Origin: an uncultured Halomicronema sp.
Lineage (GTDB): Bacteria > Cyanobacteriota > Cyanobacteriia > Phormidesmidales > Phormidesmidaceae
Direction: 5' to 3'
NCBI GenBank assembly: GCA_937899725.1
Contig: CALCCA010000063.1
Coordinates: forward strand, 1-64,000
Length of the DNA stretch: 64,000 nt
A program made the translations under genes and the position numbers. The number at the start of each line of letters is the position of its first letter. The first letter of the stretch is position 1. Below the pieces are notes generated by a model. That model saw nothing but the letters and a program-made list of their open reading frames with translations, had not been told where the DNA came from and did not search any database. Shown piece by piece: positions 34,938 to 61,262 of the stretch.

Positions 34938-36938
34938 CTATGAAGCGAAGGCCGAGGTAATATCCGTCTGGGCGCTCCCTTTCACATCTGTTGGCAAGGC
35001 TGCAATGGGCAAGGTAATCAAAAACTCCGTACCCTCTCCCACCTGGGAATTCACCTCAATCCGGCCCCGGTGGTGTTCGATAATTTTGAAACAAATGCCC
35101 AGCCCGAGACCCGTCCCTTTACCCACCGCCTTAGTGGTAAAGAAGGGATTGAAAATCTTGTCCTTAACCTCAGGAGTCATGCCAGGTCCCGTATCTCGAA
35201 TACTGACTTGAACCTGGTCAGACGTGCCGGCTCGCGTCGCGATCGTTAACTGCTTGGGGTCACTGTCATGCTCAAACATGGCATCCAGCGCATTCGCAAT
35301 AATGTTGGTAAAAACTTGATTGAGCTGAGCCGGCGAGCAGCGCACCAGGGGCAAAGAGCCATACTCCTTAATCACCTCAACGTCATATTTGAGGCGATGG
35401 CTCAAAATCAGCAGGGTACTTTCCAACCCTTCGTGAATATCCACATCTTTGACGACCGCTTCATCTAGTCGGGAGTAGTTACGCAGAGACACCACAATAT
35501 CCTGGACTCGTTGCGTCCCCATTTTCATCGATTGCAACACTTTGCTCGAATCTTCCAGCACAAATTCCAGGTCAATCTCTTCTTGCTTCGCTAAGATTCC
35601 TGTAGTCGGCTCTGGGTATTCACTCTGATAAGTTATCAAGAGATCCCGCAAATCTTGAATGTAATCCTTTAGAGGGGTGATATTCCCTTGAATAAAGTTG
35701 ATGGGATTATTAATTTCATGGGCGATACCCGCCACCATCTGCCCTAGGCTCGACATTTTCTCCGTCTGAATGAGCTGTGACTGAGCGTCCTTTAGCTCAG
35801 CGAGGGCGCTGGTGAGTTCTGCGGTGCGGCTCTCCACTTTGGCTTCTAGGGTCTGGCCTGCCAGTTCCAGGTCATGGGTATATTGCCTCACCCAGGCAAT
35901 CAGTTGATTCAACGCCTCCGCCAAAGCCCCAATTTCATCTTCACGATCAGCAGACGCCTGTAGACTGAAGTTTTCCTGCTCGACCACTTGCTTAGCCGTG
36001 TCCGTAATCGCCTGGACGGGTTTGGCAATCTTGCGCGCTATCCAGTATCCCGCGATCGCAGCCAGCCCCAAGCCCAAGCCAGATATCCCCATAATCACCA
36101 ACCAGAGCGCTCGCTGAGCTTGCTGTACCGGTTTTCGAGAAATCAATAGGGCAACGTCAAAATGTTCGCCGTCGGCACCATCTAGAGAAAAAACCTTTGT
36201 CAGATAGTCGTTGTTTTGCTGCAGTTGCGTCGCAGCAGAGTCGTCGTGATAGAAAGACTCAATCCACTGCAGGGTTTGGGGACTGGGTTCAGAGGTTGAC
36301 GCCACTACCTGCCCGTCAGACAGGAGCAAGATCTCTTCGATAATATCCCGATTAATTTGAGTGAGAAGCTCATCGCTGAGCGCAATCCCTAGCACCACCC
36401 CCCCCACAACGCCTTGCTGGGTTTTGATGGGAGACGTGCCCACCATAATAGGGGAAGCGTCATCGCCACCCGTAACGACAGTCGAAAAGTCAGACCCTGT
36501 TAACAACAGATTGAGGAGAATATCTCCTTCGAGGTCGGCACTGCGCGCAGCATTAGTCCGAGTATCCAGCAGGACTTGACGATCGGTATCTAAAATCTGG
36601 ATAACATCAGCATCCAAAATGGGCTTGAGGGGTAAGAGTTTCTTCTGCAGCGCTTGCCGATCGCCCTCAGCGGTATGGCGGGTAATCACCGGTTCGACCG
36701 CCAACAGACGAGCATCACGCCGTAAGCTCTGCATTTTCTGTTCTAAGTCCCGCTCAACCAGGCTGGCCAAATCAATGGCTTTCTCTCTCTGCTTGCGATC
36801 CAGGACGTTGGCGAAATATTCCCCCAGGACGAAAGTTCCTGTCGTCCACAGTGCCAGAAACAAGAGAATAAACGGCAGCGCGATTTTAACTGGTAAGGGC
36901 GATCGGCGATAATTAAAAATGTGATTGATTGAAGCCAT
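34938..36938 (-). CDS. Membrane sensor histidine kinase
   Basis: The protein has about 666 residues. Two membrane segments (ALPFILLFLALWTTGTFVLG and ALWLVIMGISGLGLGLAAIAGYW) flank a double-Cache-like periplasmic sensor. A HAMP domain, a coiled coil, a HisKA domain with GIAHEINNPINF (phospho-acceptor His) and an HATPase_c domain with NIIANALDA, DTGPGM and GKGTGLGLGI follow. No receiver is fused and no response regulator gene is adjacent. It lies downstream of a PstS-like lipoprotein gene on the same strand, suggesting joint ligand sensing. The start at 36938 (MASINHIF) is preferred. Confidence 0.92.
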   Translation of the reverse strand: MASINHIFNYRRSPLPVKIALPFILLFLALWTTGTFVLGEYFANVLDRKQREKAIDLASLVERDLEQKMQSLRRDARLLAVEPVITRHTAEGDRQALQKKLLPLKPILDADVIQILDTDRQVLLDTRTNAARSADLEGDILLNLLLTGSDFSTVVTGGDDASPIMVGTSPIKTQQGVVGGVVLGIALSDELLTQINRDIIEEILLLSDGQVVASTSEPSPQTLQWIESFYHDDSAATQLQQNNDYLTKVFSLDGADGEHFDVALLISRKPVQQAQRALWLVIMGISGLGLGLAAIAGYWIARKIAKPVQAITDTAKQVVEQENFSLQASADREDEIGALAEALNQLIAWVRQYTHDLELAGQTLEAKVESRTAELTSALAELKDAQSQLIQTEKMSSLGQMVAGIAHEINNPINFIQGNITPLKDYIQDLRDLLITYQSEYPEPTTGILAKQEEIDLEFVLEDSSKVLQSMKMGTQRVQDIVVSLRNYSRLDEAVVKDVDIHEGLESTLLILSHRLKYDVEVIKEYGSLPLVRCSPAQLNQVFTNIIANALDAMFEHDSDPKQLTIATRAGTSDQVQVSIRDTGPGMTPEVKDKIFNPFFTTKAVGKGTGLGLGICFKIIEHHRGRIEVNSQVGEGTEFLITLPIAALPTDVKGSAQTDITSAFAS

Positions 36939-39582: not shown

Positions 39583-39705
39583 GGCAGTGGAATGAATTCG
39601 CCTCTCACCCTATCCTGTTACGTCCGGGTTGGAGAGGGTGCATCAAAATTGGTGGAATGGATGGATGCGATCGCGCTGCTATGTTAGGGTATGTGATGAC
39701 CACAT

Positions 39706-39779
<74 letters not shown>

Positions 39780-39922
39780 TTCTTCTACAACCTACTGCTG
39801 AAGCGACTTGTAGCTTCAGCATCAACCTTTTGATGACTCTTGCATATTGTCACTAAAGGGATGGTGTTGGGCACTTTTGGGCGTTTTTGGATGTCCAAGT
39901 GGTAGAAAATTGGTAGAAAATC

Positions 39923-41077
39923 ATGCGCCAAGTTCTGACTCCAGTTGCACCCTTCGCAACTTTAGAGAGTGATCCGAGACTACATCTTGTCAAAGTCGAG
40001 AATGACAAGGGCACTCTAAGGCTTCGTTTCAGTTATGGAGGTAAGCGTCATACGCTCGCGGTTGGTTTGCCCGATTCCAAAATTAACCGACTTGTGGCTC
40101 ACCAAAAAGCAACCCAGATCGAACTAGATATTGCTTCTGGCAACTTTGACACAACGTTAAAGAAGTACAAGCCACCCAAGGCATCTAAAAAGAAAACTGA
40201 GCAAGTCACTGTCTGGGGACTGTTTCAGAAATTTATGGCAATTCAGACCAAGTCGAAAGACTTACAAGTCGGCAGCCTTTGCCGATATACGGCAACTTTA
40301 CGGCATCTCGAAACATTCTTTCCCAGTCAGACTCCAGACAAAATCGATGCCAACTTGGCAGAAGCGTTTTCACAGTATCTGCGAGGTGAGGTAGCTGATC
40401 GCACCGCTAAAGATTATTTGATTCTGGTGCAGGCTTGTTGGAACTGGGCAGAGGACACGACAACTGACAATCCCTGGTCAGGAATATTGAGTCAGGTGAA
40501 ACCGTCCCCGAAACAAAAAGTCAGGCCGTTTACGGTCACCGAGGTTCAAGCCATTTTGAAGTCGTTTGAGTGTGATCGCTACTATCGACACTATGCCGAC
40601 TTTGTAGCTTTCTTATTCGGTACAGGCTGCCGGTTTGGGGAAGCGGTTGGCCTGAAGTGGAAACATATTGCCGATGACTATTCGACAGTTTGGATTGGAG
40701 AGTCGGTTTCCAGAGGGGTGTGCAAAACGACGAAAACGGGGAAAGACAGGACAGTGACGCTGACCGCCAAAGTGATGGCAATGCTGGGAGCTAGAAAACC
40801 CGAAGGGGTATCGCCCAATGCGCTGGTCTTTCCCGCTCCAAAAGGAGGATACATCAACGACCATACGTTTCGGCGAAGGGCTTGGAGTAAAACGTTGGAT
40901 AAATTGCAGATCCAATATCGCAAGCCCTACGCGACTCGACACACGGCCATCAGTCATGCGTTAGCTAACGGAGCCAATCCCCTAGCAGTGGCGGAACAAA
41001 CGGGCCATGATCCGCAGATTTTGTTCAAACACTATGCCTCTGTGATTCAGAAGACTACTGTGATGATGGAGTTCTAG
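39923..41077 (+). CDS. int: Tyrosine recombinase (ICE integrase)
   Basis: The 384-residue integrase has a core-binding domain (about 95-195) and a catalytic domain: Arg237 in GTGCRFGEA, a likely Lys around 273, Arg339-His340 in YATRHT, His362 in TGHDPQ and nucleophile Tyr371 in KHYASV. The first His of the HxxR box is Tyr336 here, a substitution also seen in other phage-type integrases. Placement directly after tRNA-Pro makes it the enzyme for integration and excision of the element. Confidence 0.93.
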   Translation: MRQVLTPVAPFATLESDPRLHLVKVENDKGTLRLRFSYGGKRHTLAVGLPDSKINRLVAHQKATQIELDIASGNFDTTLKKYKPPKASKKKTEQVTVWGLFQKFMAIQTKSKDLQVGSLCRYTATLRHLETFFPSQTPDKIDANLAEAFSQYLRGEVADRTAKDYLILVQACWNWAEDTTTDNPWSGILSQVKPSPKQKVRPFTVTEVQAILKSFECDRYYRHYADFVAFLFGTGCRFGEAVGLKWKHIADDYSTVWIGESVSRGVCKTTKTGKDRTVTLTAKVMAMLGARKPEGVSPNALVFPAPKGGYINDHTFRRRAWSKTLDKLQIQYRKPYATRHTAISHALANGANPLAVAEQTGHDPQILFKHYASVIQKTTVMMEF

Positions 41078-41087
41078 CCATCGCCAT

Positions 41088-41717
41088 TTACAGTCTGTGT
41101 CCAAACCAGACAACCTTGCCCATGAGGCTCAACCCATTAGATTTGTCAGTGATATCTAATGAAAAAGCTTCATAGGTGGGGTTGTCGCTTAGAACTCGAA
41201 GAATTTTCTTCGGTAGGCATTGGAGACGTTTAATCAAAATCCGGTTTTCGAGCTTGAATAGAAAAAGTCCATGGTCTACTGCTTCGGGGTCGCGATGGCT
41301 AGTATCAACTAGTATCAGGTCTCTCGTCGTGAGAGTAGGCTCCATGCTTTCATCTGTGACCTTAGTTAAAAACAGATGTTCGAAAGAATTAGGGAACTCA
41401 CCTTCTAGCCAATCCGTCTTGAAAGCTAGTGGATCCTTAAAAACATACTGTCCACTTCCTCCGGTTTCCGAAGAAGAAGCTTGACCTCCGGCTAACCATT
41501 CCAAACTTACATCTGCAATGCGCGCTATAGATAGCAAAGCAGGTCGTGTTGGTTCACTTTGGCCATTGAGGTATTGACGCAAGACGGTGTCAGAAAAACC
41601 ACAACTGCGTGCGAATCCACGAATACTATTCTCGCCAACGGCCTTTTTCAAACGGCTTGGAAAATCATCTAATTCAGGTTTGTCAGCCTGCACTTCATTC
41701 AAGGACGTATTACTCAT
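41088..41717 (-). CDS. CI/LexA-like repressor with S24 peptidase domain
   Basis: The 209-residue protein has an N-terminal helix-turn-helix (about 28-75; GFARSCGFSDTVLRQYLNG) and a C-terminal S24 domain with Ser124 in TDESMEP and Lys163 in RILIKRL, the self-cleavage dyad. An Ala-Gly pair at 76-77 lies in the linker where LexA/CI autoproteolysis normally occurs. It would hold the element silent and release it upon RecA activation (SOS). It is divergent from the Ner-like gene, and two operators lie between. Confidence 0.85.
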   Translation of the reverse strand: MSNTSLNEVQADKPELDDFPSRLKKAVGENSIRGFARSCGFSDTVLRQYLNGQSEPTRPALLSIARIADVSLEWLAGGQASSSETGGSGQYVFKDPLAFKTDWLEGEFPNSFEHLFLTKVTDESMEPTLTTRDLILVDTSHRDPEAVDHGLFLFKLENRILIKRLQCLPKKILRVLSDNPTYEAFSLDITDKSNGLSLMGKVVWFGHRL

Positions 41718-41761
41718 TGCACACAATATAACTACAGACGCAAATTATAACGCTTGACATG

Positions 41762-41818: not shown

Positions 41819-42145
41819 ATGCACGTAGAGGACATTAAAGCAGCTCTGCGCAAGCAAGGCTGGACATTGGCAAGTATCGCCAAAGAGCTCGGTGTGGGAC
41901 CATCGGCCGTCTCGCATGCCTTGACGAGACAACGCTCTCGCAGAGTAGAAAAAGTGATTGCTAGCAAACTGGGGCTTGCTCCTCGTGAGATTTGGCCTCA
42001 ACGATATAAAGGAGGGGCAACCTATGGCTCAATTCGTCAGCAAACAGGAAGCTTTGCGGTGCCTCAATCTCAGCAGCACCACGTTGAAAAAGTATCGGTT
42101 GCAGGGACTGCTAGTGGAGGGCATTCATTGGGTGCGGGTCAATAG
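41819..42145 (+). CDS. Ner-like (Nlp) DNA-binding protein
   Basis: The first 62 residues match the Ner/Nlp helix-turn-helix family of transposable phages: DIKAALRKQGWTLASIAKELGVGPSAVSHALTRQ, KVIASKLGLAPREIWPQRY. It would be the Cro-like counter-regulator of the CI-like protein. The frame runs on for another 46 residues of unlike character, overlapping the Xis-like gene by 122 bases. The original stop may have been lost, or the extension may be incidental. Confidence 0.75.
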   Translation: MHVEDIKAALRKQGWTLASIAKELGVGPSAVSHALTRQRSRRVEKVIASKLGLAPREIWPQRYKGGATYGSIRQQTGSFAVPQSQQHHVEKVSVAGTASGGHSLGAGQ

Positions 42146-42296
42146 TCGTTGCACCCGCTACAATCTGGAACTGATTCAAGATTGGCTGCATAATCGCCAG
42201 GATCCAGCGGCTCATCAGCGAGCCATCGAAATTTACCAGGCTAGTTTGCTGAGTAATCAACGGAAGCCATCGCGAGTCTCTTCAAAGCGACTTTAG
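42024..42296 (+). CDS. Xis-like helix-turn-helix protein
   Basis: The 90-residue basic protein MAQFVSKQEALRCLNLSSTTLKKYRLQGLLVEGIHWVRVN...LIQDWLHNR has a winged-helix layout like excisionases and MerR-type DNA-bending proteins. A strong GGAGG lies at 42011-42015, nine bases before the ATG, which decides this start over an upstream ATG in the same frame. Position in an early operon next to the lysis/lysogeny-type switch fits an excision factor. Confidence 0.65.
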   Translation: MAQFVSKQEALRCLNLSSTTLKKYRLQGLLVEGIHWVRVNSRCTRYNLELIQDWLHNRQDPAAHQRAIEIYQASLLSNQRKPSRVSSKRL

Positions 42297-42630: not shown

Positions 42631-44985
42631 ATGACACAGTATGTTTACTCAGGGCGCAAACAGGCCTGCCCGATTTGCGATCGCACCAAGGACCCAGACT
42701 GCCGCTGGAATGATGAAGTGGTCTTCTGTCACAGCCACATTGACCAGGATGCTGTGGTTGAGGGCTACGTCTATCGCGGGGCAACCGCTGACGGTTTGTG
42801 GGGACAGTATTTCAAATTGACCCAGTCAGAAAAGTCCGCTCGCCCTCAGCAGCGGCAGGACTTCTTTTATCCGACTCGGCAGGGCCAGCCCCTGGTGAAG
42901 GTGACACGGGTAGATCGTGGAAGCGGCACAAAGTTCTTTGTTCAGTATCACTGGGATGGGCAACAGTGGGTGAAGGGGCTGACGCCAGCGGTAAGAAAGC
43001 AGGTGCCAATTTATCGCTATGCGGAAGTGAGGCGGGCGATTGCCTCTGGACAACTCATTTGGATGGTAGAAGGGGAAGGCTGCGCCGATGCGTTATGGAA
43101 TGTTGGCATTCCGGCAACGACAACGTTGGGTGGTTCTAAGAAGTATCGCAGTTATGGCAATTATGCGCAGGACTTGGAGGGGGCTCGCCTGGTGCTGTGC
43201 CCCGATCGCGACCAGGTTGGCATGGCTCACATGGAAGAGATTGCCCAGGATTTTCCGGACGCTCAGTGGTGCTATCCCTATCCGGAGAGTCTGCGCTGGC
43301 AAAACCTGCCTAAGCATGGCGGCCTTGACATTGCGGATTGGATTGCCGAGGGCGCAGCGGCTGAGCAGATTCGAGCAGCGTTTGGGTCAAAGCGGGAGCT
43401 GACAACAGTTCAAGCGGTTCCCCAAACGCTAGATGTCGCTAGGCTGCAAGATCAGATTCGTCATTACCTGGCAGCGGATCCCTCCGAGTTGGAACTGTCA
43501 GCCCGAGTTTTGCAGTGGCATCGGGAAACCCAGCTCACGGTCAAAGACCTCTGGAGTTTGGTCAAACCTTTGCAGGCGGATTTGGAGCAGCAAGAAGAGC
43601 GGGGCGATCGCATCGCTGAAATTCACACGCTGCTGAAGATTGTCGATTGTCAGCTGGTTTTGGGTGATTTTCTGCGTCCCGAATTGGCGCATTCTCTGGA
43701 GCGCATCTCTAGCTGGATTGGAGCAACCCCAGCGGCGATGCTAGTGACACTGCTCCCCGTTGCCGCTTCGCTGTTGCGCATCGGGACGGAACTAGAAATT
43801 GATGCAGGCATGGGCTTTTACGCCCCGCCGATTCTGTTCACAGGACTGGTGGCTCCGTCCGGCACAAAGAAGAGTCCGATTCAGCGACAGATTTTGGGGC
43901 CGCTGATGCGCTTGCAAGCAGAAGCCGATCAGGATTACGACTATGAAATTGCCGCTTATGAAGTGGAGTTACGAGAGTGGGAGCAGACCAAGTCTACTGA
44001 GCGAGGCCCCAAACCAAAGAAACCGCTGCCACGGGAGTATCACACCGCTGATGCGACGCGAGAAGCTTTGGCTCGCATGCAAGCTCAGCAACCGGAACAC
44101 GGCATTTTGGTGACGCCAGATGAATTAGCAGGGCTCTTCAAGGGACACAATCAGTACCGCAACGGACGCGGTAACGATAAGGAGTCACTGCTGACGGCAT
44201 TTGACGGTTCGGGGCTGAAGGTAGACCGAGCCAGCGGAGTCCGCATCAGTCTATCACGCACCAGCCTCAGCATCACGGGCACGATTCAACCGGACATTCT
44301 GCGAGAGATGATGGGCGATTTCTCTGATGCCAATGGACAATGGGCCAGGTTTTTATGGTGCCTTTTGCCGCTGAAGCCTGCGCCGTTCCCTCGGCAGACT
44401 CAGCCGGATGATATGTCGGAACAGCTTTACAGGATCTATCAGCGATTGGCGGGGTTTCCAGCTCATTGCTACTCGCTGTCACCAGAAGCCAAAAGAGCAT
44501 TTGCGGATTGGTATGACCAGTTGGATCAGCTGCGCATCACTGAGACTCACCAGGGATTGCAGGCAGTCTATGCCAAGATGCAGGGCTACACGGGAAGACT
44601 AGCGCTCATTTTGCACTGCCTAAATGCAGCAGTGGAGCAAAGACCACCTGATGAAGCAGTGTTGGTGCAGTCGGTGAGATCGGCGATCAAGCTGGTGCGG
44701 TGGTTTATGGGGCAGGTAAAGTTGCTGTATGCCGAAGGGGAAACCGCCTGGGGGGTATTGGAGCCAATTTACACGAAGCTGATTCAACTCTCGCGGGTCA
44801 GGGGTTGGTTAACCGCGCGGGATGTGCGAAATTTTGAGCGCAGTCTGCGGAAGGCTAGTTCTGATATCATCCGCTCCCATTTTCGTGAACTGGAAGCAAT
44901 GGGCTATGGCGAGACCAGCGGCGAGGGGCAACGGCTGCGGTGGAAAACGACTGTAGATGTTGTAGACAGTTCGCGAGAACTGTAG
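42631..44985 (+). CDS. Primase/helicase-like DUF3987 replication protein
   Basis: The 784-residue protein has an N-terminal zinc finger (Cys13, Cys16, Cys24, Cys33), a TOPRIM-like region (MVEGEGCADALWNVGIPAT at about 145, LVLCPDRDQVG at about 188) and a C-terminal DUF3987 domain with GLVAPSGTKKSPIQRQILGP, a modified P-loop, and LVTPDELAGLF. This is the layout of plasmid and ICE replication proteins that prime and unwind DNA. GGAG lies upstream of the ATG. Iteron-like repeats begin inside its last codons and continue past the stop. Confidence 0.85.
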   Translation: MTQYVYSGRKQACPICDRTKDPDCRWNDEVVFCHSHIDQDAVVEGYVYRGATADGLWGQYFKLTQSEKSARPQQRQDFFYPTRQGQPLVKVTRVDRGSGTKFFVQYHWDGQQWVKGLTPAVRKQVPIYRYAEVRRAIASGQLIWMVEGEGCADALWNVGIPATTTLGGSKKYRSYGNYAQDLEGARLVLCPDRDQVGMAHMEEIAQDFPDAQWCYPYPESLRWQNLPKHGGLDIADWIAEGAAAEQIRAAFGSKRELTTVQAVPQTLDVARLQDQIRHYLAADPSELELSARVLQWHRETQLTVKDLWSLVKPLQADLEQQEERGDRIAEIHTLLKIVDCQLVLGDFLRPELAHSLERISSWIGATPAAMLVTLLPVAASLLRIGTELEIDAGMGFYAPPILFTGLVAPSGTKKSPIQRQILGPLMRLQAEADQDYDYEIAAYEVELREWEQTKSTERGPKPKKPLPREYHTADATREALARMQAQQPEHGILVTPDELAGLFKGHNQYRNGRGNDKESLLTAFDGSGLKVDRASGVRISLSRTSLSITGTIQPDILREMMGDFSDANGQWARFLWCLLPLKPAPFPRQTQPDDMSEQLYRIYQRLAGFPAHCYSLSPEAKRAFADWYDQLDQLRITETHQGLQAVYAKMQGYTGRLALILHCLNAAVEQRPPDEAVLVQSVRSAIKLVRWFMGQVKLLYAEGETAWGVLEPIYTKLIQLSRVRGWLTARDVRNFERSLRKASSDIIRSHFRELEAMGYGETSGEGQRLRWKTTVDVVDSSREL

Positions 44986-45184
44986 ACACCCTCGTCTACC
45001 GCTGAAATGATTGCTATTCATAGCTTTCAAGCAAACTGTAGACGAATAGACAGGGTTTAGAAATCTGGCAATCTGGGAAAGTGTCTACATGCCTACAGTT
45101 GGGGCTGAAACGCTTGCTCAGAAAGGGATTTAGCCTGTAGACACCCCCGTCTACCAAGGTCTACAGTGGGGCAACCTGTCTACA
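44961..45184. other. Iteron-like array, candidate replication origin
   Basis: Within 224 bases the hexamer GTAGAC or its complement GTCTAC occurs nine times (TGTAGAC at 44961, 44981, 45037, 45136; GTCTAC at 44994, 45083, 45149, 45159, 45178). Two of these make nearly identical GTAGAC-N6-GTCTAC dyads (44982-44999 and 45137-45154). The array adjoins the primase/helicase gene. A diverged copy of part of the array lies at 46228-46290. These features fit a replication origin or a replication-protein binding region. A transfer origin is another possibility. Confidence 0.6.
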
Positions 45185-46013: not shown

Positions 46014-46438
46014 CGAGCGCCTTTCTCAATCAGCCTGATTTCGACCACAACAACTTTTGGGTTTTATGAAGCTGGTAGGTTTGTAGAGCCTATCTTTTGG
46101 TCAATCCTGATTTCCCTTTAACCGCTTTTGCATCGGAGGCAACGAGTGACGTGATCGATTGGTCAGAACAGCGCCAGATAGGATGATTGCCGCTGAAAGT
46201 GTTAATGGCTATGGCTTTTAGAGAAGCAGTAGACGAATATACAGGTTTTATATCTGGAGAGTCTGTGGAAAGTGTCTATCTGTCCATCAATCTAGTAAAT
46301 ACCGGCTTGTAATGAGCTGCGGCAGTTATGGGCCGAAAAAGGATGGATTAGAATGACAGCAAATTGATGTCCCTTTGTGTGCCCAGGTGTTCAGACTGGC
46401 TGATAGGCTGACGCTACTACGGACTGATCGAAAGTGCC
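46014..46438. other. Intergenic region with diverged iteron-array copy
   Basis: No gene is seen in these 425 bases. Positions 46228-46290 repeat, with many substitutions, the part of the array around 45036-45098 (AGTAGACGAATA...ACAGG, then GGAAAGTGTCTA). This points to a past duplication of the candidate origin. The remainder is featureless by eye. Confidence 0.5.
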
Positions 46439-47851: not shown

Positions 47852-48073
47852 TTAGTCTTGCGTGATCGACATAAAGTATTTCAAGATATCAACTCGTTCC
47901 CATGAAGCAAGCAGATATTCTTTGTAAGAGTTATGTCCTTTGCTACTTAAAAAGTCTATTAGAAAATCTTGAAATTCCTCTTCGCTTACAAATTCCATAG
48001 TTCTAAACAGGAAAAATACAAGCATTAAAGGGAAAAAAGAATTGCGGCTTTTCTTAACTTTGGTACTTGGCAT
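47852..48073 (-). CDS. Small ORF coupled to the TrlF-like ATPase
   Basis: The 73-residue product (MPSTKVKKSRNSFFPLMLVFFLFRTMEFVSEEEFQDFLIDFLSSKGHN...) starts inside the last codons of the upstream ATPase gene (20-base overlap), with AAAGAG before the ATG. A second in-frame ATG at 47998 would give 48 residues. No family is recognised. The overlap suggests it is a partner or regulator of the ATPase. Confidence 0.5.
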   Translation of the reverse strand: MPSTKVKKSRNSFFPLMLVFFLFRTMEFVSEEEFQDFLIDFLSSKGHNSYKEYLLASWERVDILKYFMSITQD

Positions 48074-51000
48074 CTCTTTTACGAAATGCTGGTCGTGTTC
48101 CCTCTAAAACGTCAACTATGTGCTGATTTATTACTGAATCCTCAATAGAGCCTGAGGTATAGGTAATTTTATTGCCATCCAACCTATCGAATTCAGCATG
48201 GATTACTTGCTCAGCATCGCAAACTACAGCGATGTTAGGGCTATGAGTCACCATAATAATTTGCCTATGCTTTTTAACCTCCCTAATTACCGGAAAAAGT
48301 AGATTATAAACAGTGAAATTGTCTAAATTCTCTTCTGGCTGATCAATGATTATAGGCTTTTTGCTTTTATCGATCAGCAGATAAAACACTAGCAAGAGAG
48401 AACCTCTCTCACCAGGCGACAACTGATTAAGATGCTTATCATCAAGCTTCAGAAAATATTCAGGCTTGAGGTAGTCAAGTGACCATAAATAGTCATACAG
48501 AGCTTGTAGCGTTTTACCCTTCTTGAGTTGACCTGAAGTGCTTACTTTTAATCCTGCATTATTTCTTTTGTCTATTCTAAGATGCTCTATCAAGTCTTTG
48601 ACGAGTTCGATCGCTTCATCTGCGACATCAAGGTCATACTTAGCAATCAAAGACTCTAATTTCTTTTCTCCTTCTTGTTTTCCACAAAATGATCCAGATA
48701 CACCTTGGTTAATGTAAGTTTCTAGAAATCCATTGCTGAGATCACTCTCAGCAATAGATGCACCAAAACTAAGTTTGAACTCATCTTTGATAATGTTGTT
48801 GTTTTCAATAAGTTCTTGAACACTAGAGAATAGTCTTGTGTAGACATCTCGTATTTCTGAGATATAGCCATATATACTTCGAGCCATAAGCTCTCTATCT
48901 GACTCTAATTTGTAAAGATCAGCTTCGAGTTCGTCCTCAATATATGCAATCTGCTTTTCGTGATACTTAATGGTGTCAGGTGTTTCTTCATCACCTTCTA
49001 TTACATTTTTGGCTTTATCCCATAAATCTTGAGTTCTGAGGTACTCTTGATATTTCTTCTGTGGTTCATCCAATTCTGACTCAAGCTTACCAATCTCTTT
49101 TTTTAATGCATTAGATTGGTTGATCAAACTTTCTTCAGCTTCTTCAGAAAGGCTTGTATCTATAGCCTGTATTTCCTTTTGAAGAGTTCCCTCAAGTTTT
49201 TCAATAGAGTTAGCATCGATCCCGAAAGTGACAATCTCTTTGATATCCAATTCAAGTTTGATTGCGACTTCAGAATTTTCTCGGATAAAGACTTCGACGA
49301 CTCCTTTAATGCTTGAAAGTTTGGATTTTAGCTTGTCTAATTCAGCCTTTCTTTTATAAACCTGTTGTTGATTAATTCGAGCTTCCGAAACGGCCTGCTC
49401 CAACTTTGCCAAAGCTGAATTTTTTCTAGAAAGTTCATCTTGTATAGATCTAGATCTTTGTTGTGTCTTTTTATCTAAAGACTCAGGATTAGGTTGTTCA
49501 TCTGGCCTCGTAGCGGCATGAACTTCTAACTGTCGCTTTTTTTCTTTTAAGGCTTCTTCAATTTGCTTAAGGTGCCCTGGCTTCAATTGTTCTTCTAAAG
49601 ATATAATTTCTTGATTTATTTTAGATAGTCTGTCCTTAAATATCTTTATTTGATCTATTTTTTCCTCGGTTTCGTATGTAATCAAATTCTCCAAGCTATC
49701 ATTTCCCAATCTTTTAGCTTGATCTATATGAGAAAAAATTACATGTCGTATTTCTTTTTGGAACTTGCTCTTTTCAGAAGCATCTCTTTCGGTACACACT
49801 TCTTCCAAGTAAGATTGAGGTATATAGACAACGGACTCAAGTGCATCTGAGCTTGGATTTTCGTGTAATCCTATAGGAGCAGATTCTTCACCATCTGCCC
49901 AAATAACCGAAGTCTCAAAATTTTGTGCTAACCTTCCGCCCTTAATCCTGAACCTATCCTTAGTTAGAAAAGAGAAATGCTCGGCTTTCTTAGTGTTACC
50001 TGCTAACGCAATAATATCGGTCAGTGCGCTTTTACCCTTTCCCTTATTCCCAATAATAGCAACTAATCCATGATTCAAGTCTAATTCACAGTCAAACCAT
50101 TTTTCTTCTAAGTTAGAATTATCCTTTTTCCTTATTTTTACTTGTGATATATGAAAGGTCTTGTTATTTTCTACTTTCTTAAGCTTGGGTGGTCGCTTCC
50201 CTATGAAAACTCTGTCTTCAGGTTCGTTAACGATCTGACATAACCCCTCAAAAGTTGGATCTGCTTTCACCCAGAAATACTTATCTGTGGGTCTATTTTT
50301 ATCATCTTTTAATCGCCCTAATTCAGAGCTAGCATCATGCGAATCTGTGCCCTTCACACATGGTTTAGGTTTGCCGAACCACTCTTCTATTTTTTCCTTG
50401 GGGAATTTTTCATTCTTACCAAGAAAGAAATTGATTTGGTTGGCATTGGCGGAGCCTATAAGATCAGATATGTTAATAAATCCTTCTTTCAAATACCTAT
50501 CTGCCTGAGGATCCACATCATCAATACCGCCATATTCATCATAGGGGAGCCAAATCAAAAACTGATTCTTATAATATTTATCCTTGAAAGCTCTTTCATT
50601 TTTAAGTTGTTGAACAGTTGAGAGGAAATCTACAGAAGTTGAATTAAGCAAAAATTCTGGATCATCATACTTATCTCCGATCATTCGGTCATAAATATGG
50701 AGCTGTTTAATAAATGTTTCAATATTGTCTACATTAACTTTATTACTAAAAATTATATGGAAATTTAGACGCACTCCAGACTTGCTATTTTTGTTTTGGA
50801 GAACATTTGTCATCCTGCACTCAACAACTGGCAAAAGAGCTTTTGATTTCAATTGACTGAGAGCGTTCTTTAGGTCAGATCTAGTGGAAGGTAAGCTATC
50901 CACTTCATTTATCAAAGCTTTTAAATGCTTATATCCATCTACGGAGAAATAGTCATTAATTCCTATTAATTCACACTCCGATCCTGCTAACTGGAAAATA

Positions 51001-51962: not shown

Positions 51963-52727
51963 CTACACCTGCTCCAAGATCTCAATCACCTGCTGCAGGG
52001 GAAATTCCAGCTCTTCATGCCCCAACTTCGCCAATAACCGCCCCTGCCGAATCGCTTGCTTGTAGCGCTCACTCTCCAAAATCGACGGCAGCACCCGAAT
52101 CTCTCCTGCCACCTGCCGCATCGCCGCGATCGCCTCGCGGCTATCCGTCGCCTGCGACCTGCCAAACCACTTATCGCGAAACGGTAGTACTCCCAGCACC
52201 TGCCCCGTAAACGCTCGAATGCGCCGCATCTCCTCCAATAGCTCCAGACTGCGCAGCAGCGAATTCACTCCCTTGGTCGAAGCCTCCGCCGGAATCAATA
52301 CCCAGTCCGATGCCCCCACCACCGATAGACAAATCTGAGTGCGCTGGGGCGGTGAATCGATCAGGCAAACATCAAACAGCTCACTCACGGCTTCCAAGCT
52401 GTAGCGCAACGCCAACGCTCCCATACCACTGGTGGCTAAGTACTCCTGGGCCTGATGCAGCCCCTCATCGGCAGGCAACAGATACAGATCCCCGTAAGCC
52501 AGGGGATAAATGCCCGCTGCCGTCTCCACCTGACGCCTCAGCACTTCTAGGAGCGTCGGGGCATCCGGCTGCACGTCATGGCCTAAATAAAACGTCAGAT
52601 TTGCCTGGGGGTCCGCATCCACCATCAATACCCGTTGCCCCTGCTGCGCCAACAGTCGGCCTAGTAATAGCGAAATTGACGTTTTCCCTTGTCCTCCCGA
52701 GAGCGACAAGCAGCTCAAAGTCTTCAT
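51963..52727 (-). CDS. parA: ParA-family partition ATPase
   Basis: The 254-residue protein has the deviant Walker A SGGQGKTS (residues about 10-17) with KTLSCLSLSGG before it, then RVLMVDADPQANLTFYLG, VCLIDSPPQ and LIPAEAS, as in ParA/Soj proteins. It would segregate the excised circular element. GGAG, part of a GGAGCGATCGCCC stretch, precedes the ATG at 52727; a longer frame upstream is unlikely. It is divergent from the T4SS operon, and a palindrome TTGACGTCAA (52841-52850) in the gap may be its operator. Confidence 0.88.
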   Translation of the reverse strand: MKTLSCLSLSGGQGKTSISLLLGRLLAQQGQRVLMVDADPQANLTFYLGHDVQPDAPTLLEVLRRQVETAAGIYPLAYGDLYLLPADEGLHQAQEYLATSGMGALALRYSLEAVSELFDVCLIDSPPQRTQICLSVVGASDWVLIPAEASTKGVNSLLRSLELLEEMRRIRAFTGQVLGVLPFRDKWFGRSQATDSREAIAAMRQVAGEIRVLPSILESERYKQAIRQGRLLAKLGHEELEFPLQQVIEILEQV

Positions 52728-52982
52728 GGGCGATCGCTCCTGATAACCAAACCCAGAACTTTCTGAAAGGCTGGGCGTCTTCACCGAACAAGAGAATCTG
52801 TCGCCATTAAAGCTACTTAACTTAAAAGCGTCAAGACGTATTGACGTCAAAACTTATAACAGCCTGTGCTGATCGTTGTAATGACTAGTTAATGCTGGCT
52901 GTTGAGGATGTATTTAAGTTAAAGATTCAAGAGCAAAGGAGAACTTATTCAAACCCTGTTTCAGATATTTTAGAGACGTTAA

Positions 52983-54000: not shown

Positions 54001-54354
54001 ATGCCCTCTCACTTTCGTCCGGTTAACGCCATTCTGGGAGCCCAACCCCGCTTAGGTCCCATTCCTGCCGACCAAATCATTCCGTGGTTCTGCATCACCG
54101 GGGTGTCATACCTGGTGGGTCGCGGGTTCAACCTGAGTTGGCTGGCAATTGGTTTCATCGCCGCCTGGGGCATGTCTACCTGGTGGATTCTCACGGGGGG
54201 ACAAAGCTGGAAGTTCACGGCTAAATTCGTGCCGACTCCTACCTGGAGTCGCGGCTATGCCCGATATCTGAGATTTATCTACCATGAAACAGAAAATCGG
54301 CAAACACCGCCTCAAACTCGGCGGCCAATTCGTCGGCACCCTGACGCCTTTTGA
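54001..54354 (+). CDS. VirB3-like T4SS inner-membrane protein
   Basis: The 117-residue protein has the short VirB3 layout: a polar N terminus (NAILGAQPRLGPIPADQ), two adjacent membrane segments (IIPWFCITGVSYLVGRGF; LSWLAIGFIAAWGMSTWWIL) and a basic tail. It overlaps virB4 by 71 bases, so the C-terminal end is read in two frames. VirB3 assembles with VirB4 and VirB6 at the inner membrane. Confidence 0.8.
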   Translation: MPSHFRPVNAILGAQPRLGPIPADQIIPWFCITGVSYLVGRGFNLSWLAIGFIAAWGMSTWWILTGGQSWKFTAKFVPTPTWSRGYARYLRFIYHETENRQTPPQTRRPIRRHPDAF

Positions 54355-57100
54355 AGATGCCCTCAATCTCGCCGCCATGCTGCGGGTCGAACTACGGGGG
54401 CGACGGGTCGGCGCTTACGTGCTCACCAAGGGGCAGAACCGAGAGCACTTGTGTTTTGTTTTTGGCTTTGACTGCAAAGGCATTCACAATACCCTGACTG
54501 ACGAACAAGTTGAGACCATCTTCAGTCAACTGGAATCGGGGTTGAAGGACTTGCCTGGGGGTGAACGGCTGACCCTGCACCTGGGGTCGTTTTCATCCGA
54601 TCGCGATCGCCAACAAGACCTCGCTCAGCTCACCGATCTGGCCCCCAGCCATGCCCTGAAGTTTTTGCTTACCAGCGATCGCGCCCGCATCCAGCAGCTC
54701 ACCCAACAGGGGCTACGAAAACCCAAGTTTCTGCGGCTCTATGTCACCTACACCGTGCAAAGCGGTTCCGAGGGAGCCCAAGACCTAATCGAAAAGCTGA
54801 TCGGTCGGGGAGAAACTTTGTGGAAGTCGTTTACGGGCGAACTACAACAGGCCAAGAACCAACGCCTGCAAACAGTGATCACTAAAGCGTTTACCGACGG
54901 CTTCCTCCTGTGGGAGCAGGTGCTCTCAAACAAAATGGGCTTATCTGTGAAGCCCTTGGGTGAAGTTGACCTGTGGACATTGCTCTGGCAGCAGTTTAAT
55001 CAGAGCAAGCCGATTCCGATTCCCCAACTCATTGTGCTAGATGGCCACGGGTTACACGAACAGGTCAACTCTGAAATCCACAGCACCACCCTGCTCACCC
55101 GAGCCGGGGTCCCCAATGCCGGGAAATCCTGGACCAAGGTGAATGGTCAGTATGTGGCTCCTCTCACCTTTCTGGAAAAACCGGGGGGCTGGGCCAGTGA
55201 GTTTGCTCAACTGCGCTACCTCTGGGAAGTCCTGTCCCGAGAAACCGTGGCGGATACCGAGATCTTCTGCCAATTAACCCGCGCTAACGAAACCCTGGTG
55301 AAGACGACGGTTCAGCGGATGCTGAAGCAGTCTAACCTGACGGCCACCCTGGCGGAAGAAGGCAATTCCGTGGATGTGGCCGCAGAGCTGAAAATGAAGC
55401 GCTCCATTGAGGCCCAGGAAGAACTCTTCGAAGGGGCGCTGCCCATTCACACCGCCGTGGTCTTCCTGGTTCATCGCCCGACTCTGGAGCAGTTGGACGA
55501 AGCCTGCCGGTATCTCCAAAGCTGCTTTCGCCGTCCCGCTTGGGTGGAGCGAGAGCAAGATTACGCCTGGAAGGTCTGGCTGCAGACGCTGCCCATCGTT
55601 TGGGACGCCTTAATGGCCAGCCCCTTTAATCGCAGGCAGCTCTATCTGACGGGAGAAGTACCGGGGCTGATGCCGTTAGTCCTTACTCAGCCCTGTGATA
55701 CCCAAGGCTTTGAGTTGATTGCTGAGGAAGGCGGCAGCCCGATTCACCTGGATTTGTTTACTCAGCACAAGAATCTGGGGTTGTTCGCCACGACTCGCGC
55801 TGGAAAATCCGTTTTAGTCTCCGGCATCCTGACCCAGGCTTTGGCCCACCGCTTTCCCGTCGTCGCCCTGGACTTCCCGAAACCCGATGGCTCTTCTACT
55901 TTTACCGACTATACCCAGCTAGTCGGCGGGGCCTACTTTGATATCTCCCGTGAGTCCAACAACCTGTTTGAGCTGCCCGACCTGCGGCACCTGCCCAGCG
56001 ACGAGCAAAAAGAACGCCTGCAAGACTTCCAATCGTTCCTCGAATCAGCACTGCTGACGATGATCGTGGGCTCGGGAGCAAACGGGTCTGTCATGACCCA
56101 GACAATCCGTTCCATCTTAGTGCTGGCACTGAATGCCTTCTTTAGCGATTGCCAGATTCAGCAGCGCTATCTGGCAGCGATGGCAGGGCGTTTGGGCTCT
56201 GACGCTTGGGATAGAATCCCCACGCTGGCGGACTTTCTGGCATTCTGCACGCCGGAGAAGCTCGATTTTCAGCAGGTGGGCGGCAACATCGAAGCCGCGC
56301 TGAACATGATTGAGCTGCGGCTGCGGTTTTGGCTCTCCAGCCGCGTGGGGCGAGCGATTTCGGCCCCGTCCAGCTTCCCCACCGATGCGCAACTGCTGGT
56401 TTTTGCGTTGCGTAATCTGGCGAATGAGGAAGATGCAGCGGTGCTGGCGCTTTCCGCCTATGCCGCTGCCCTGCGGCGCGCCTTGGAAGCTCCCGCCTCG
56501 GTTTTCTTCATTGATGAAGCCCCGATTCTGTTTGAGTTTGATGAAATTGGCGCACTGATTGGCAGGCTTTGTGCCAACGGTGCTAAAGCCGGGATTCGAG
56601 TGATTATCTCCGCTCAAGATCCCGATACGGTTCATAAGTCACCGGCCAGCGCCAAGATCTTTCAGAACCTGACGACCCGCCTGATTGGCCGGGTACAACC
56701 GACCGCCGTCGATAGCTTTGAGCGCATCCTCAAGTATCCGCCCGCCATCATCAACCGCAACGCCAGCGACAGCTTCTTTCCCAAGCGAGAGGGCATCTAC
56801 AGCCAATGGCTCTTGGACAATAACGGCATCTACACCTACTGCCGCTACTATCCCGCCTTTGCCCAGCTGGCGGCGGTCGCGAATAATCCCGATGAGCAGG
56901 CCACTCGGGATCTAGTGCTGCGCCATGCTCCCGACGAATTTACCGGCCTCGCTGAATTTGCGCGGCTACTGGTGCAGTCCATTCAATCCGGCGAACCGCT
57001 GTCCGTCATCACCGAGCGCTGGTTTGCCGAACGCAATCCCCATCCCGAAGTGCCGATCGCACCGTTTAACTCTCTTCACTCTGGAGGTTCTTCCCGATGA
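54284..57100 (+). CDS. VirB4-like T4SS ATPase
   Basis: The 938-residue protein has a VirB4-like N-terminal domain and a C-terminal P-loop ATPase: Walker A TTRAGKSV near residue 505 and Walker B VFFIDEAP near residue 740, with the FQNLTTRLIGRV sensor-like segment after. It powers assembly and substrate transfer. It overlaps virB3 by 71 bases and the next gene by four. Confidence 0.88.
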   Translation: MKQKIGKHRLKLGGQFVGTLTPFEDALNLAAMLRVELRGRRVGAYVLTKGQNREHLCFVFGFDCKGIHNTLTDEQVETIFSQLESGLKDLPGGERLTLHLGSFSSDRDRQQDLAQLTDLAPSHALKFLLTSDRARIQQLTQQGLRKPKFLRLYVTYTVQSGSEGAQDLIEKLIGRGETLWKSFTGELQQAKNQRLQTVITKAFTDGFLLWEQVLSNKMGLSVKPLGEVDLWTLLWQQFNQSKPIPIPQLIVLDGHGLHEQVNSEIHSTTLLTRAGVPNAGKSWTKVNGQYVAPLTFLEKPGGWASEFAQLRYLWEVLSRETVADTEIFCQLTRANETLVKTTVQRMLKQSNLTATLAEEGNSVDVAAELKMKRSIEAQEELFEGALPIHTAVVFLVHRPTLEQLDEACRYLQSCFRRPAWVEREQDYAWKVWLQTLPIVWDALMASPFNRRQLYLTGEVPGLMPLVLTQPCDTQGFELIAEEGGSPIHLDLFTQHKNLGLFATTRAGKSVLVSGILTQALAHRFPVVALDFPKPDGSSTFTDYTQLVGGAYFDISRESNNLFELPDLRHLPSDEQKERLQDFQSFLESALLTMIVGSGANGSVMTQTIRSILVLALNAFFSDCQIQQRYLAAMAGRLGSDAWDRIPTLADFLAFCTPEKLDFQQVGGNIEAALNMIELRLRFWLSSRVGRAISAPSSFPTDAQLLVFALRNLANEEDAAVLALSAYAAALRRALEAPASVFFIDEAPILFEFDEIGALIGRLCANGAKAGIRVIISAQDPDTVHKSPASAKIFQNLTTRLIGRVQPTAVDSFERILKYPPAIINRNASDSFFPKREGIYSQWLLDNNGIYTYCRYYPAFAQLAAVANNPDEQATRDLVLRHAPDEFTGLAEFARLLVQSIQSGEPLSVITERWFAERNPHPEVPIAPFNSLHSGGSSR

Positions 57101-58983: not shown

Positions 58984-59721
58984 ATGGTGCAGTTAATCGA
59001 AAAACGCAATACGAACTATTTGCCCTTATTCGTTTTGGGCAGTGTGACGCTCCAACTGGTGATTCTGGTGTTCCTATTTGTCCAAGCCGGTGCCTTGAGC
59101 CGTCTGAGTCGTCAAGCCGCTCCCACCCTGGTGCAAATGCAGGATGGCCAGGCCATCCGGGTCGGCGCGATGGAGGCCCAAGACCGCACCCCCGAAACCA
59201 TTCGGCGTTTCGTTAATGACACGTTGGTGTTGATGTTCAACTGGAGTGGCAGTCTCCCGGCGGCGACTGCCGAAGAAGCTAGTCAGCCTCAGCCTGATCC
59301 AGGACTGCCGGTAGAGATGGAGCGCGGTAAGGGGCAGGTGGCTACTGCTAGCTGGCAGGCCAGTTTCGCCTTCTCAGAAGACTTCCGTCAGGACTTTCTC
59401 AAACGAGTTGCTGAATTGACGCCACCAGGGGTTTTCAGCGGTACGACTCAGGTGGTGATGGTGATCAATCATGTCTCTGAGCCCGTAGTGGTCGGCGAGG
59501 CGCGCTGGCAGGTAGATGTCGTCGCTCACCTCTACGTCTTCGATGAAACCAATGCCCTGGGAAAGGCGATTCCCTTTAACCGCGAGGTGTTTGTGGAAGC
59601 CGTCACTGCCCCAGCGGTTCCCGAGGGCGAAACACCCTTGGAGCAGGCCATTTACGGCATTCGTCAGGCGGGGCTACAAATCTATGCCATCCGTGAACTC
59701 AATCGCGAGGACTTGCCATGA
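58984..59721 (+). CDS. VirB8/TraE-like T4SS protein
   Basis: The 245-residue protein has one membrane segment (LPLFVLGSVTLQLVILVFLFVQAGAL) and a periplasmic domain of NTF2-like pattern, ending YGIRQAGLQIYAIRELN. This bitopic layout and its place before VirB10 match VirB8, which nucleates the T4SS core. It overlaps the virB10 gene by four bases. Confidence 0.75.
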   Translation: MVQLIEKRNTNYLPLFVLGSVTLQLVILVFLFVQAGALSRLSRQAAPTLVQMQDGQAIRVGAMEAQDRTPETIRRFVNDTLVLMFNWSGSLPAATAEEASQPQPDPGLPVEMERGKGQVATASWQASFAFSEDFRQDFLKRVAELTPPGVFSGTTQVVMVINHVSEPVVVGEARWQVDVVAHLYVFDETNALGKAIPFNREVFVEAVTAPAVPEGETPLEQAIYGIRQAGLQIYAIRELNREDLP

Positions 59722-61262
59722 GTACCCCTGATAATTTTTGGGATGAACAGGAAATGGCGGATCTGGTGGGCTTGCAGCTACCGGACTCGACTGAAACGTC
59801 CAAAGCCGAATCTACTCCACCAACCTCTGGCAGTGACCCTAACCCTGACTCTGCACCGCTATTAGACCCCGAAGATCTGGATGAGTCCGCTACCGTTGGC
59901 GCTGGTCAGAAACCGAGACTATCGCTCGCCGCCAATCCTTTCACGAAGCTGGGCGTGGTGGCAGCAGGAACGGGCTTGGTGATTGGCGTGCTGGCGGTTT
60001 TCACCAGCGGCGTCATGAATCAAGAGGATTCACAGCCAGCACAGGAGACGCAGGCCGATTTTGCTGAACCGATGGTGGCAGCAGAGGAATCAGCGGCAGA
60101 CGATCGCGGACAGTTGCTGACCGATTTGGCGATGGGTCAACAGCAAGCGGAACTAGAAGCCTTGGCCCAAGAAGAGCCTCCCCCTCGACCAGAACCAGAA
60201 CCTGCCGCGATTCAAGAACAGCCGCAATTTTCAACCCCCCTAAGATCGACATCGCGATCGCCCCAACCGGTTGTCCAGCGTTCAGCCCTGCCGCCTCGTC
60301 CCACCCCTGTTCCTCGGACCATTGCCGCCCAACCAACGCCAGCGGTAACGGCTCCTGAGCCAGAAGGAGATCCCATGGAGCAGTGGATGGCCTTGTCCCA
60401 AATCGGCAGTTATCGCCGAGGGACAGATGCCTCTGCCATTGAAGAAGCCTCAACCCTTGAAATCCCTGACCAACTTTCCACTCCTAACTCAGTCGATGAC
60501 TCCCCAGCTACTCAGTCAGCCGAGCCAAGACAGATTCCAGCTGTACTTACTCGCGACACTCCTGCTTCGACTTGGCCAACGATTAACCATGCCGAAGAAG
60601 CTGCCATTCTACAGGGACGCCCCCTGCCAACATCATCGGCAGCGCTCGTTACGGGCACTCAGGCCAAAGCGGTTTTGGAAACGCCTTTGATCTGGGCAGC
60701 GGCGACAGCAACAGAAACGCCTCAGTTCGTAGTGAAACTAACAGAGCCCTTATTGACCCCTGAGGACGCAATTGGCCTTCCGGCTGAAACGACGTTGGTC
60801 GTGCAGGTGAAATCGGTGGATGAGAGTGGCTTGGCTCAACTAGCTGTCGTTTCGTTCATCCAGGATGGTCGCGAAGTGGCACTCCCGACAGACGCAATCC
60901 AACTACGAGGGCTCGCAGGGACGCCCCTGATCGCCCAAAAGTACGGCGACCCTGGCGGCGACATCGCTCGGATGGATTTGAATATGGCGGCAATGTCGGG
61001 GATTTCTCGAGTCGCTGAGCTGATCAATCGTCCCCAATCTTCCTCAGTGATTAGCAATGTCGGAGGCAGTACCGTCACCCAAGAAGCTGGAGACCCTAAC
61101 ATTCTGGCTGGTCTGCTCGAAGGGGCCTTTGGCCAATTGAGCGAACAGATGGCAGAGCGGAATCAGGCCGCTCTCGAAGAGATCCTTAATCGACCGACGA
61201 TTTGGTATCTCCCACCCGGACTGGAAGTCGAAGTGTACATCAATCAAACGGTGACGCTATGA
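59718..61262 (+). CDS. VirB10/TrbI-like T4SS protein
   Basis: The 514-residue protein has an acidic cytoplasmic N terminus, one membrane segment (LGVVAAGTGLVIGVLAVF), a Pro/Glu/Gln-rich periplasmic linker (about 105-220) and a C-terminal domain with LVTGTQAKAVLETPLIW, LPAETTLVVQVKSVDESGLAQL and a final beta-rich ending. This is the VirB10 architecture that spans from the inner to the outer membrane. It lies before, not after, the virB9-like gene, the reverse of the Agrobacterium order. Confidence 0.8.
   Translation: MSTPDNFWDEQEMADLVGLQLPDSTETSKAESTPPTSGSDPNPDSAPLLDPEDLDESATVGAGQKPRLSLAANPFTKLGVVAAGTGLVIGVLAVFTSGVMNQEDSQPAQETQADFAEPMVAAEESAADDRGQLLTDLAMGQQQAELEALAQEEPPPRPEPEPAAIQEQPQFSTPLRSTSRSPQPVVQRSALPPRPTPVPRTIAAQPTPAVTAPEPEGDPMEQWMALSQIGSYRRGTDASAIEEASTLEIPDQLSTPNSVDDSPATQSAEPRQIPAVLTRDTPASTWPTINHAEEAAILQGRPLPTSSAALVTGTQAKAVLETPLIWAAATATETPQFVVKLTEPLLTPEDAIGLPAETTLVVQVKSVDESGLAQLAVVSFIQDGREVALPTDAIQLRGLAGTPLIAQKYGDPGGDIARMDLNMAAMSGISRVAELINRPQSSSVISNVGGSTVTQEAGDPNILAGLLEGAFGQLSEQMAERNQAALEEILNRPTIWYLPPGLEVEVYINQTVTL

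Follow-up and report, generated by a model that had tools for sequence, protein, structure and literature searches.

A GTAGAC iteron array at the 3′ end of a DUF3987 primase-helicase gene, a candidate replication origin of an integrated cyanobacterial element

Introduction

The locus described here raises the question of what a dense array of short GTAGAC sites does at the 3′ end of a primase-helicase gene. It lies in 64,000 nucleotides of an uncultured Halomicronema sp. (assembly GCA_937899725.1, contig CALCCA010000063.1, positions 1 to 64,000; hereafter the window), within what looks like an integrative and conjugative element (ICE) at a tRNA-Pro gene. To our knowledge, few replication origins are known for cyanobacterial plasmids and ICEs. 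A preliminary description of the window had noted nine GTAGAC/GTCTAC motifs in 224 bases, starting in the last codons of the gene, and had suggested an ICE replication origin or Rep-binding region. We conclude that an ICE inserted at tRNA-Pro very probably has its replication origin here, the array being that origin or at least its Rep-binding core. Binding by Rep, activity as an origin, bidirectionality and a requirement for excision are what we infer from sequence rather than observe.

The array and its conservation

The nine exact sites start at 44962 (+), 44982 (+), 44994 (−), 45038 (+), 45083 (−), 45137 (+), 45149 (−), 45159 (−) and 45178 (−), and span 44962-45183. The clustering first noted is thus confirmed. 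GTAGAC occurs 25 times on the two strands of the window against 12.9 expected and is its most clustered hexamer. The densest 224 bp holds 9 sites, whereas the maximum across 200 order-2 Markov simulations of the window was 3; chance clustering was therefore rejected. The remaining real window has 1 site per 224 bp. The two GTAGAC-N6-GTCTAC dyads reported earlier are both exact and are the sole matches in the window even when up to 2 mismatches are allowed; a whole-genome search with up to 3 mismatches placed the 21-bp dyad nowhere else. Alignment to relatives adds three decayed sites, GTAGAT (44953), ATAGAC (45046) and GCCTAC (45091), which make up a 12-site layout. The array does begin within the gene: the TAG of the second GTAGAC, at 44983-44985, serves as the stop codon. 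A genome-wide repeat family, the explanation against which the frequency of the motif elsewhere was to be checked, was also rejected: beyond the array, the whole-genome search gives only a decayed remnant near 46.2 kb as a significant match, the next best having E 0.2.

A homologue of some kind was found in 44 of the 95 genomes searched, the window's own included. Conservation in related elements was the other check proposed, and the array is kept at the 3′ end of the DUF3987 primase-helicase gene in all 15 close-family loci tested, which are closely related and hence not independent. Their sites run in the order >>>< >> and, across the centre, << ><<<. This near-symmetric arrangement covers ~230 bp and is flanked in the alignment by more variable stretches. 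The reading frame ends inside the array in 13/15; two loci (L018 and L019) are more diverged than the others. The base preceding the sites is T in 7/9 sites of the window and 8/11 of genome G001, and G in most sites of seven other close relatives. This shift is a concerted change, as expected of binding sites.

The putative initiator

The protein consists of a primase-like N-terminal part, DUF3987 (PF13148, residues 366-701) and a C-terminal domain (~711-777), with PHROG matches to primase and helicase. Two named relatives were found, both Leptolyngbyaceae. A profile search of PDB sequences gave no match and no relative was found in viral contigs. DUF3854 gave no match, and neither DUF927 nor a D5-type helicase was detected; the protein shows DUF3987 only. 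The C-terminal domain is probably a winged helix, as suggested by its conserved sequence and by the order helix-helix-helix-strand-strand in two low-confidence models. We infer that the DUF3987 protein is the initiator (Rep) of the element.

Arrays at divergent DUF3987 loci

Using a profile of the helicase and C-terminal domain, divergent DUF3987 loci (L numbers) from genomes and plasmids were anchored at the end of the C-terminal domain. The 900 bp around this point was then scored for clustering of a 7-mer, with Markov shuffles of that sequence as the background. A clustered, locus-specific 7-mer beside the domain end was found in 31 of 49 loci at p 0.005, the floor of the test with 200 shuffles. 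The control, anchored at the ends of long open reading frames (ORFs) without the helicase profile, was positive in 4/111. Loci with a profile score of at least 330 are positive in 25 of 31 cases, those below in 6 of 18. The cluster starts +26 to +62 nt after the domain end in 22 of the 31 positive loci. One positive, L103, proved false: its nine same-direction sites alternate at 34 and 53 bp and form a tandem repeat, so they are not iterons. Named plasmids are positive at 13 of 18 loci, L103 not being counted. Among the survey loci is pOSC7112.05 (7.6 kb), which has no other annotated replication gene and carries an array at the same place. Microcystis p1 (7.0 kb) shows a AAAGGTGAC array in the k-mer table but is below the length limit and so uncounted.

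The 49 loci are not a random sample because they come from a part of the plasmid and genome matches. The plasmid loci are 18 out of 64 records with a homologue, plus a plasmid of Picosynechococcus PCC 8807 entered via its array match; the genome loci are a hand-picked part of the matches plus automatically chosen ones. We excluded L008, L063, L085 and L098-L101 as repeats of the same locus, L020 and L021 as truncated, and L028, L029, L032-L034 and L087-L097 for want of a helicase-profile match. L060 was excluded because 254 nt follow its domain where 300 were required; its array runs across the record start. The longer stretches L035-L053 were left out as well, since they repeat counted loci, carry remnants of these or cover other contig regions. 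Two of these uncounted loci show sites, L033 as a GTAACAA cluster and L034 as an array behind a gene fragment. Two non-cyanobacterial records were examined, a Priestia megaterium plasmid and Salinibacter pSR11. The former carries 8 GTAGAC in 450 bp after its DUF3987 region (at most 3 in 200 shuffles), ~80-390 nt past the end of the profile match.

Sites that bind Rep could serve mainly in copy-number or incompatibility control (titration, handcuffing) or in regulation, the true origin lying elsewhere. Second arrays ~1.6-1.7 kb downstream in L040 and L045, the remnant 1.2 kb downstream in the window and promoter-like hexamers overlapping two sites would all suit such a role. The array sits at the 3′ end of rep, however, and not at its promoter. 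Of nine stretches with rep (or its end) and an intact array (L037, L040, L042, L044-L047, L052 and L053), seven have a single array. In 29 of the 31 positive loci no cluster of the locus exceeds the density of the one at the domain end, ties being allowed; the rest of the locus holds an equal or denser cluster in four (L103, L109, L111 and L112). We consider a mainly controlling function unlikely.

The motif differs from locus to locus (GTAGAC, GTTGAC, GTGGAC, GCTGAC, CAGTAGTC, GTGTAAT, AAGTGTCGC, ATTGGTG and others). Of 241 distances between neighbouring sites, 113 fall within 8-13 bp; 500 random placements averaged 50 such distances and never exceeded 70. The commonest spacings are 9-12 bp. 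Orientation and mirror tests were applied to 29 divergent arrays, L103 included. Convergent blocks (split p≤0.05) are present in 14, and L108, L064, L110, L055, L065, L031 and L026 are complete mirrors or nearly so at a tolerance of 3 bp; several divergent arrays are blocks of direct repeats. The AT content of the array centres varies among the other loci. At least 90% of the sites precede the stop of the rep reading frame in 24/30 divergent arrays, and the site-bearing coding part resembles a low-complexity linker in the five array-bearing plasmid proteins viewed.

Inverted sites might instead act through an RNA or single-strand DNA structure (a terminator, attenuator or hairpin origin), and folding of the strand indeed beats 200 shuffles (z -3.9). 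Yet, when mirror-placed sites are matched up, the fraction of complementary bases between them is 0.19-0.51 in ten arrays (≤0.41 in nine of them), and a continuous hairpin was rejected on this ground. The direct repeats of several divergent arrays and the lack of a terminator-like site within the window's array also speak against a structural role, which seems to us barely credible.

Motif and C-terminal domain

Across 30 loci, and with helicase identity controlled for, motif similarity follows C-terminal domain identity (partial Mantel r 0.32, permutation p 0.0005). With the C-terminal domain fixed, the value for helicase identity is r -0.08 (p 0.85). The helicase, the C-terminal domain and the array persist through changes of the N-terminal primase, which is Prim-Pol in five of nine proteins scanned (L065, L069, L104, L106 and L110). 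Two plasmids of a single Crinalium strain,.05 and.07, encode helicases 86% identical, yet their motifs are AGTGTAAT and CAGTAGTC. Motifs differ among plasmids of the same strain in Crinalium (3/3), Scytonema (2/2) and Allocoleopsis (2/2 usable, L103 left out).

These data bear on the idea that the array serves the element's ParA as a partition site (centromere) or its tyrosine recombinase as a recombination site. It is true that the element encodes ParA and an integrase, that GTAGAC-N6-GTCTAC resembles a recombinase core with dyad spacers of 5-6 bp, and that gene fragments with an array occur without the rest of the gene, for example near tRNA-Pro in genome G003. The attachment repeats nevertheless lie in tRNA-Pro and not in the array, parA is ~6.8 kb away, and the motif tracks the C-terminal domain of Rep. 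A partition or recombination site is therefore very improbable.

We lean towards a broader view, namely that the DUF3987 helicase with its C-terminal winged helix defines a phylum-wide class of cyanobacterial initiators reaching Bacillota (one plasmid seen). Such initiators would have an exchangeable primase and an origin made of iterons, placed within or right at the 3′ end of the gene that encodes them; iteron and DNA-binding domain would change together, so that several such plasmids could coexist in a cell.

The origin proposal and the evidence against it

The earlier suggestion of an ICE origin or Rep-binding region is supported, at the level of sequence, by the ICE gene content and by like arrays at the same place on autonomous plasmids. 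The C-terminal domains of Rep from Staphylococcus aureus pathogenicity islands (SaPI) and of Cch2 from the staphylococcal cassette chromosome mec (SCCmec) bind iterons directly downstream of the gene (PMC7581432). By analogy with these proteins, Rep would bind both blocks of sites, melt the centre and replicate the excised circle. The C-terminal domain, which is probably a winged helix, would recognise the GTAGAC iterons, and the blocks facing each other across the spacer would seat two Rep oligomers head to head. DNA would open between the oligomers, the DUF3987 helicase would be loaded on each strand and the N-terminal primase part would prime replication. The origin would act after the element has been excised and circularised.

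Several observations weigh against an origin bound in this way. The central spacer (45044-45082) is only mildly enriched in AT (59% versus 49% for the window), and no strict DnaA box (TTWTNCACA) lies within 3 kb of the array, the nearest being at 48678 and 40719. Cumulative GC-skew minima lie off the array in 11 plasmids, the nearest at 0.10 and 0.13 of the record length, and in L115 and L120 it is the GC-skew maximum that lies near the array. Mirror symmetry alone reaches p≤0.05 in just 7 of the 29 arrays. This test finds no array at the domain end in 18 of the 49 divergent loci; the negatives on named plasmids are L054, L061, L102 and L107. On L054 (Picosynechococcus PCC 8807 plasmid unnamed2) there are 12 AGTAGAC sites, but these lie upstream of the point where the domain of the DUF3987 gene ends, 3.1 kb from it. 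We note that this array is intergenic, beside a helix-turn-helix (HTH) gene and close to a CHAP-domain gene. None of the five densest clusters of Salinibacter pSR11 is at the expected place. Genome G054 has two close-family copies with the same array, and loci L082 and L083 of genome G012 share the motif GTTGAAA. The 30 Mantel loci include L103, and their correlation is not proof of binding because the adjoining C-terminal codons and array could travel together by recombination.

The structural models are also poor. AlphaFold mean confidence (predicted local distance difference test, pLDDT) was 39.6 for the whole protein and 53.2 for the C-terminal 105 residues, each from a 3-sequence alignment. 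A Foldseek search of the PDB with the 105-residue model gave no match with E below 1.6; several winged-helix proteins are among the weak matches and were not counted as evidence.

The integrated element

The features are collected in Table 1. Further genes downstream of the array encode a VapC toxin and a coupling protein (TraD/TrwB). The element thus has a tyrosine integrase, tRNA attachment repeats, and genes for type IV secretion and a coupling protein, as an ICE would. A 26-base probe from the 55-bp repeat occurs at two places only in the genome, tRNA-Pro and contig C148, and no tRNA gene was found at the repeat on C148. The right end of the element was not found on its own contig; the right-hand repeat is on another. 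In genome G005, end repeats of tRNA-Pro (50 bp, 98%) are separated by ~96 kb, and rep lies ~3 kb in from the left-hand repeat. VirB4 and rep share a contig, at most ~22 kb apart, in 10 of 15 genomes searched (G000, G001, G005, G012, G019, where the copy is truncated, G023, G028, G049, G054 and G058). From the tRNA-Pro repeats, the integrase and VirB4 near rep, the element looks ICE-like and the family looks like an ICE family by gene content. No relaxase was recognised among the ORFs scanned, which cover part of the element.

Table 1 Features of the element in the window
Feature	Position	Strand	Remark
tRNA-Pro (CGG)	39705..39780	+	integration target
left attachment site (attL) core, 55 bp	39732..39786	.	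exact repeat on contig C148, same genome
tyrosine integrase	39923..41077	+	
HTH + peptidase S24 repressor-like protein	41088..41726	-	
excisionase-like protein	41958..42296	+	weak PHROG match
primase-helicase, 784 aa	42631..44985	+	proposed initiator (Rep)
iteron array	44951..45184	.	ancestral layout of 12 sites, of which 9 are exact GTAGAC/GTCTAC; candidate replication origin or Rep-binding region
dyad 1 CTGTAGACACCCTCGTCTACC	44980..45000	.	exact GTAGAC-N6-GTCTAC at 44982-44999
centre of symmetry	45038..45096	.	inner right-pointing pair, spacer, inner left-pointing pair; second site of each pair decayed
dyad 2 CTGTAGACACCCCCGTCTACC	45135..45155	.	exact GTAGAC-N6-GTCTAC at 45137-45154
decayed remnant of related array	46190..46284	.	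one intact GTAGAC
TrlF-family AAA ATPase (NF045780)	48054-51101		between array and parA
ParA-family ATPase	51963..52850	-	
VirB4/TraC-like type IV secretion system ATPase	54284..57100	+	matches under curated NCBIfam cut-offs
TrbI/VirB10-like conjugation protein	59718..61262	+	

Comparison with known systems

The initiators of SaPI and SCCmec resemble the present one in being helicases with short iterons at the 3′ end of the gene and a fused or linked primase, carried by a mobile element of the chromosome (PMC7581432). The Rep-ori of SaPI and phage-inducible chromosomal islands (PICI) has iterons that sit at the 3′ end of the gene for the helicase-initiator or follow it directly, and the present array shares this trait. 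The helicase there is DUF927 or Primase_Cterm/D5-like, whereas the window protein has DUF3987 only, and the array is therefore not filed as a SaPI/PICI Rep-ori. The present element also differs in its cyanobacterial host and conjugation genes, and its divergent DUF3987 relatives in having, in the 24/30 cases given above, nearly all iterons inside the initiator's own frame.

The oriV of Salmonella genomic island 1 (SGI1) is likewise an iteron origin immediately 3′ of rep, in an integrative element that replicates after excision. Its four repeats are direct and 17 bp long, a putative DnaA box is present and its Rep is of the RepA_C type (PMC7433901); here the sites are short, lie in convergent blocks and have no strict DnaA box within 3 kb. 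The satellite element PLE (PICI-like element) also has an iteron origin bound by its own initiator, RepA_N, but that protein has no predicted primase or helicase activity (PMC7145576).

Information on Rep proteins is limited for cyanobacterial plasmids, for which CyRepA1 and CyRepA2 (DUF3854) and CyRepX are described as initiators (PMC10079941, PMC10899382). The N-terminal domain of CyRepA is related to Toprim; the window protein differs in lacking a DUF3854 match. The word iteron is absent from the available text of both papers. DUF3987 fused to archaeo-eukaryotic primases has been predicted to be a helicase of mobile-element replication (PMC5862659); the available text has neither "iteron" nor "cyanobacteri", and what is added here is the array and its tie to the C-terminal domain. 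In the open-access literature we found no paper joining DUF3987 with cyanobacteria, plasmid and replication, none on the Crinalium plasmid replication protein, and no prior description of cyanobacterial DUF3987 initiators with such origins. Iteron origins at the end of rep are already known; the new part would be a cyanobacterial DUF3987 class that has them.

The proposal would give a rule for finding a likely origin from the gene only: the search begins where the C-terminal domain of the DUF3987 protein ends. Such a rule would point to origins that can be tested in many plasmids, supply parts for cyanobacterial vectors that are compatible with one another, and provide natural initiator/iteron pairs for studying changes of specificity. 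If the proposal is true, a cyanobacterial ICE family carries plasmid-type replication.

Remnants and other observations

The diverged copy near 46.2 kb had been taken as a duplicate of the array. Its homology stands, with 77% identity to the array centre over 68 bp (E 3.4e-5), and its origin does not: it is closer to the arrays of L001 (78%) and L007 (77%) than to the window's own (72.5%). Simple duplication is thus not the best reading, and a recent duplication of the window array was rejected as the source. Gene fragments that bear arrays without the full gene occur at L034/L039, L041, L043 and L045; the array-bearing fragment in G003 sits beside tRNA-Pro. Together with the remnant, these fragments suggest that arrays persist as leftovers of earlier elements.

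Genome G054 contains four copies of a rep fragment (L048-L051), each starting at gene nt 105 and having identical flanks, with one block of ~257 bp and another of ~103 bp; the pattern suggests that a transposable element picked up a piece of rep. An insertion of ~675-720 bp occupies a common place just 3′ of the array in L040, L045, L052 and L053, apparently with ~10 bp duplicated, and is absent from L009.

The TrlF-family ATPase is likely defence cargo. Homology to G001 is broken across 48054-51101. A separate ORF with a weak match to Prim-Pol (archaeo-eukaryotic primase, AEP-type) lies 3′ of the coupling protein gene on the same contig (L035:5238-6833). In the control scan, L119 (pMIC7113.05) showed two dense 17-copy 7-mer clusters away from rep, at ~8368-8591 and 36268-36647. 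Two annotated iscB genes flank the DUF3987 rep region of L111 (Chroococcidiopsis pCHRO.01). Gloeocapsa PCC 7428 pGLO7428.02 (L112) is recorded as linear and has an annotated protelomerase ~3 kb from its DUF3987 rep and array; it is possibly a telomere-ended cyanobacterial replicon.

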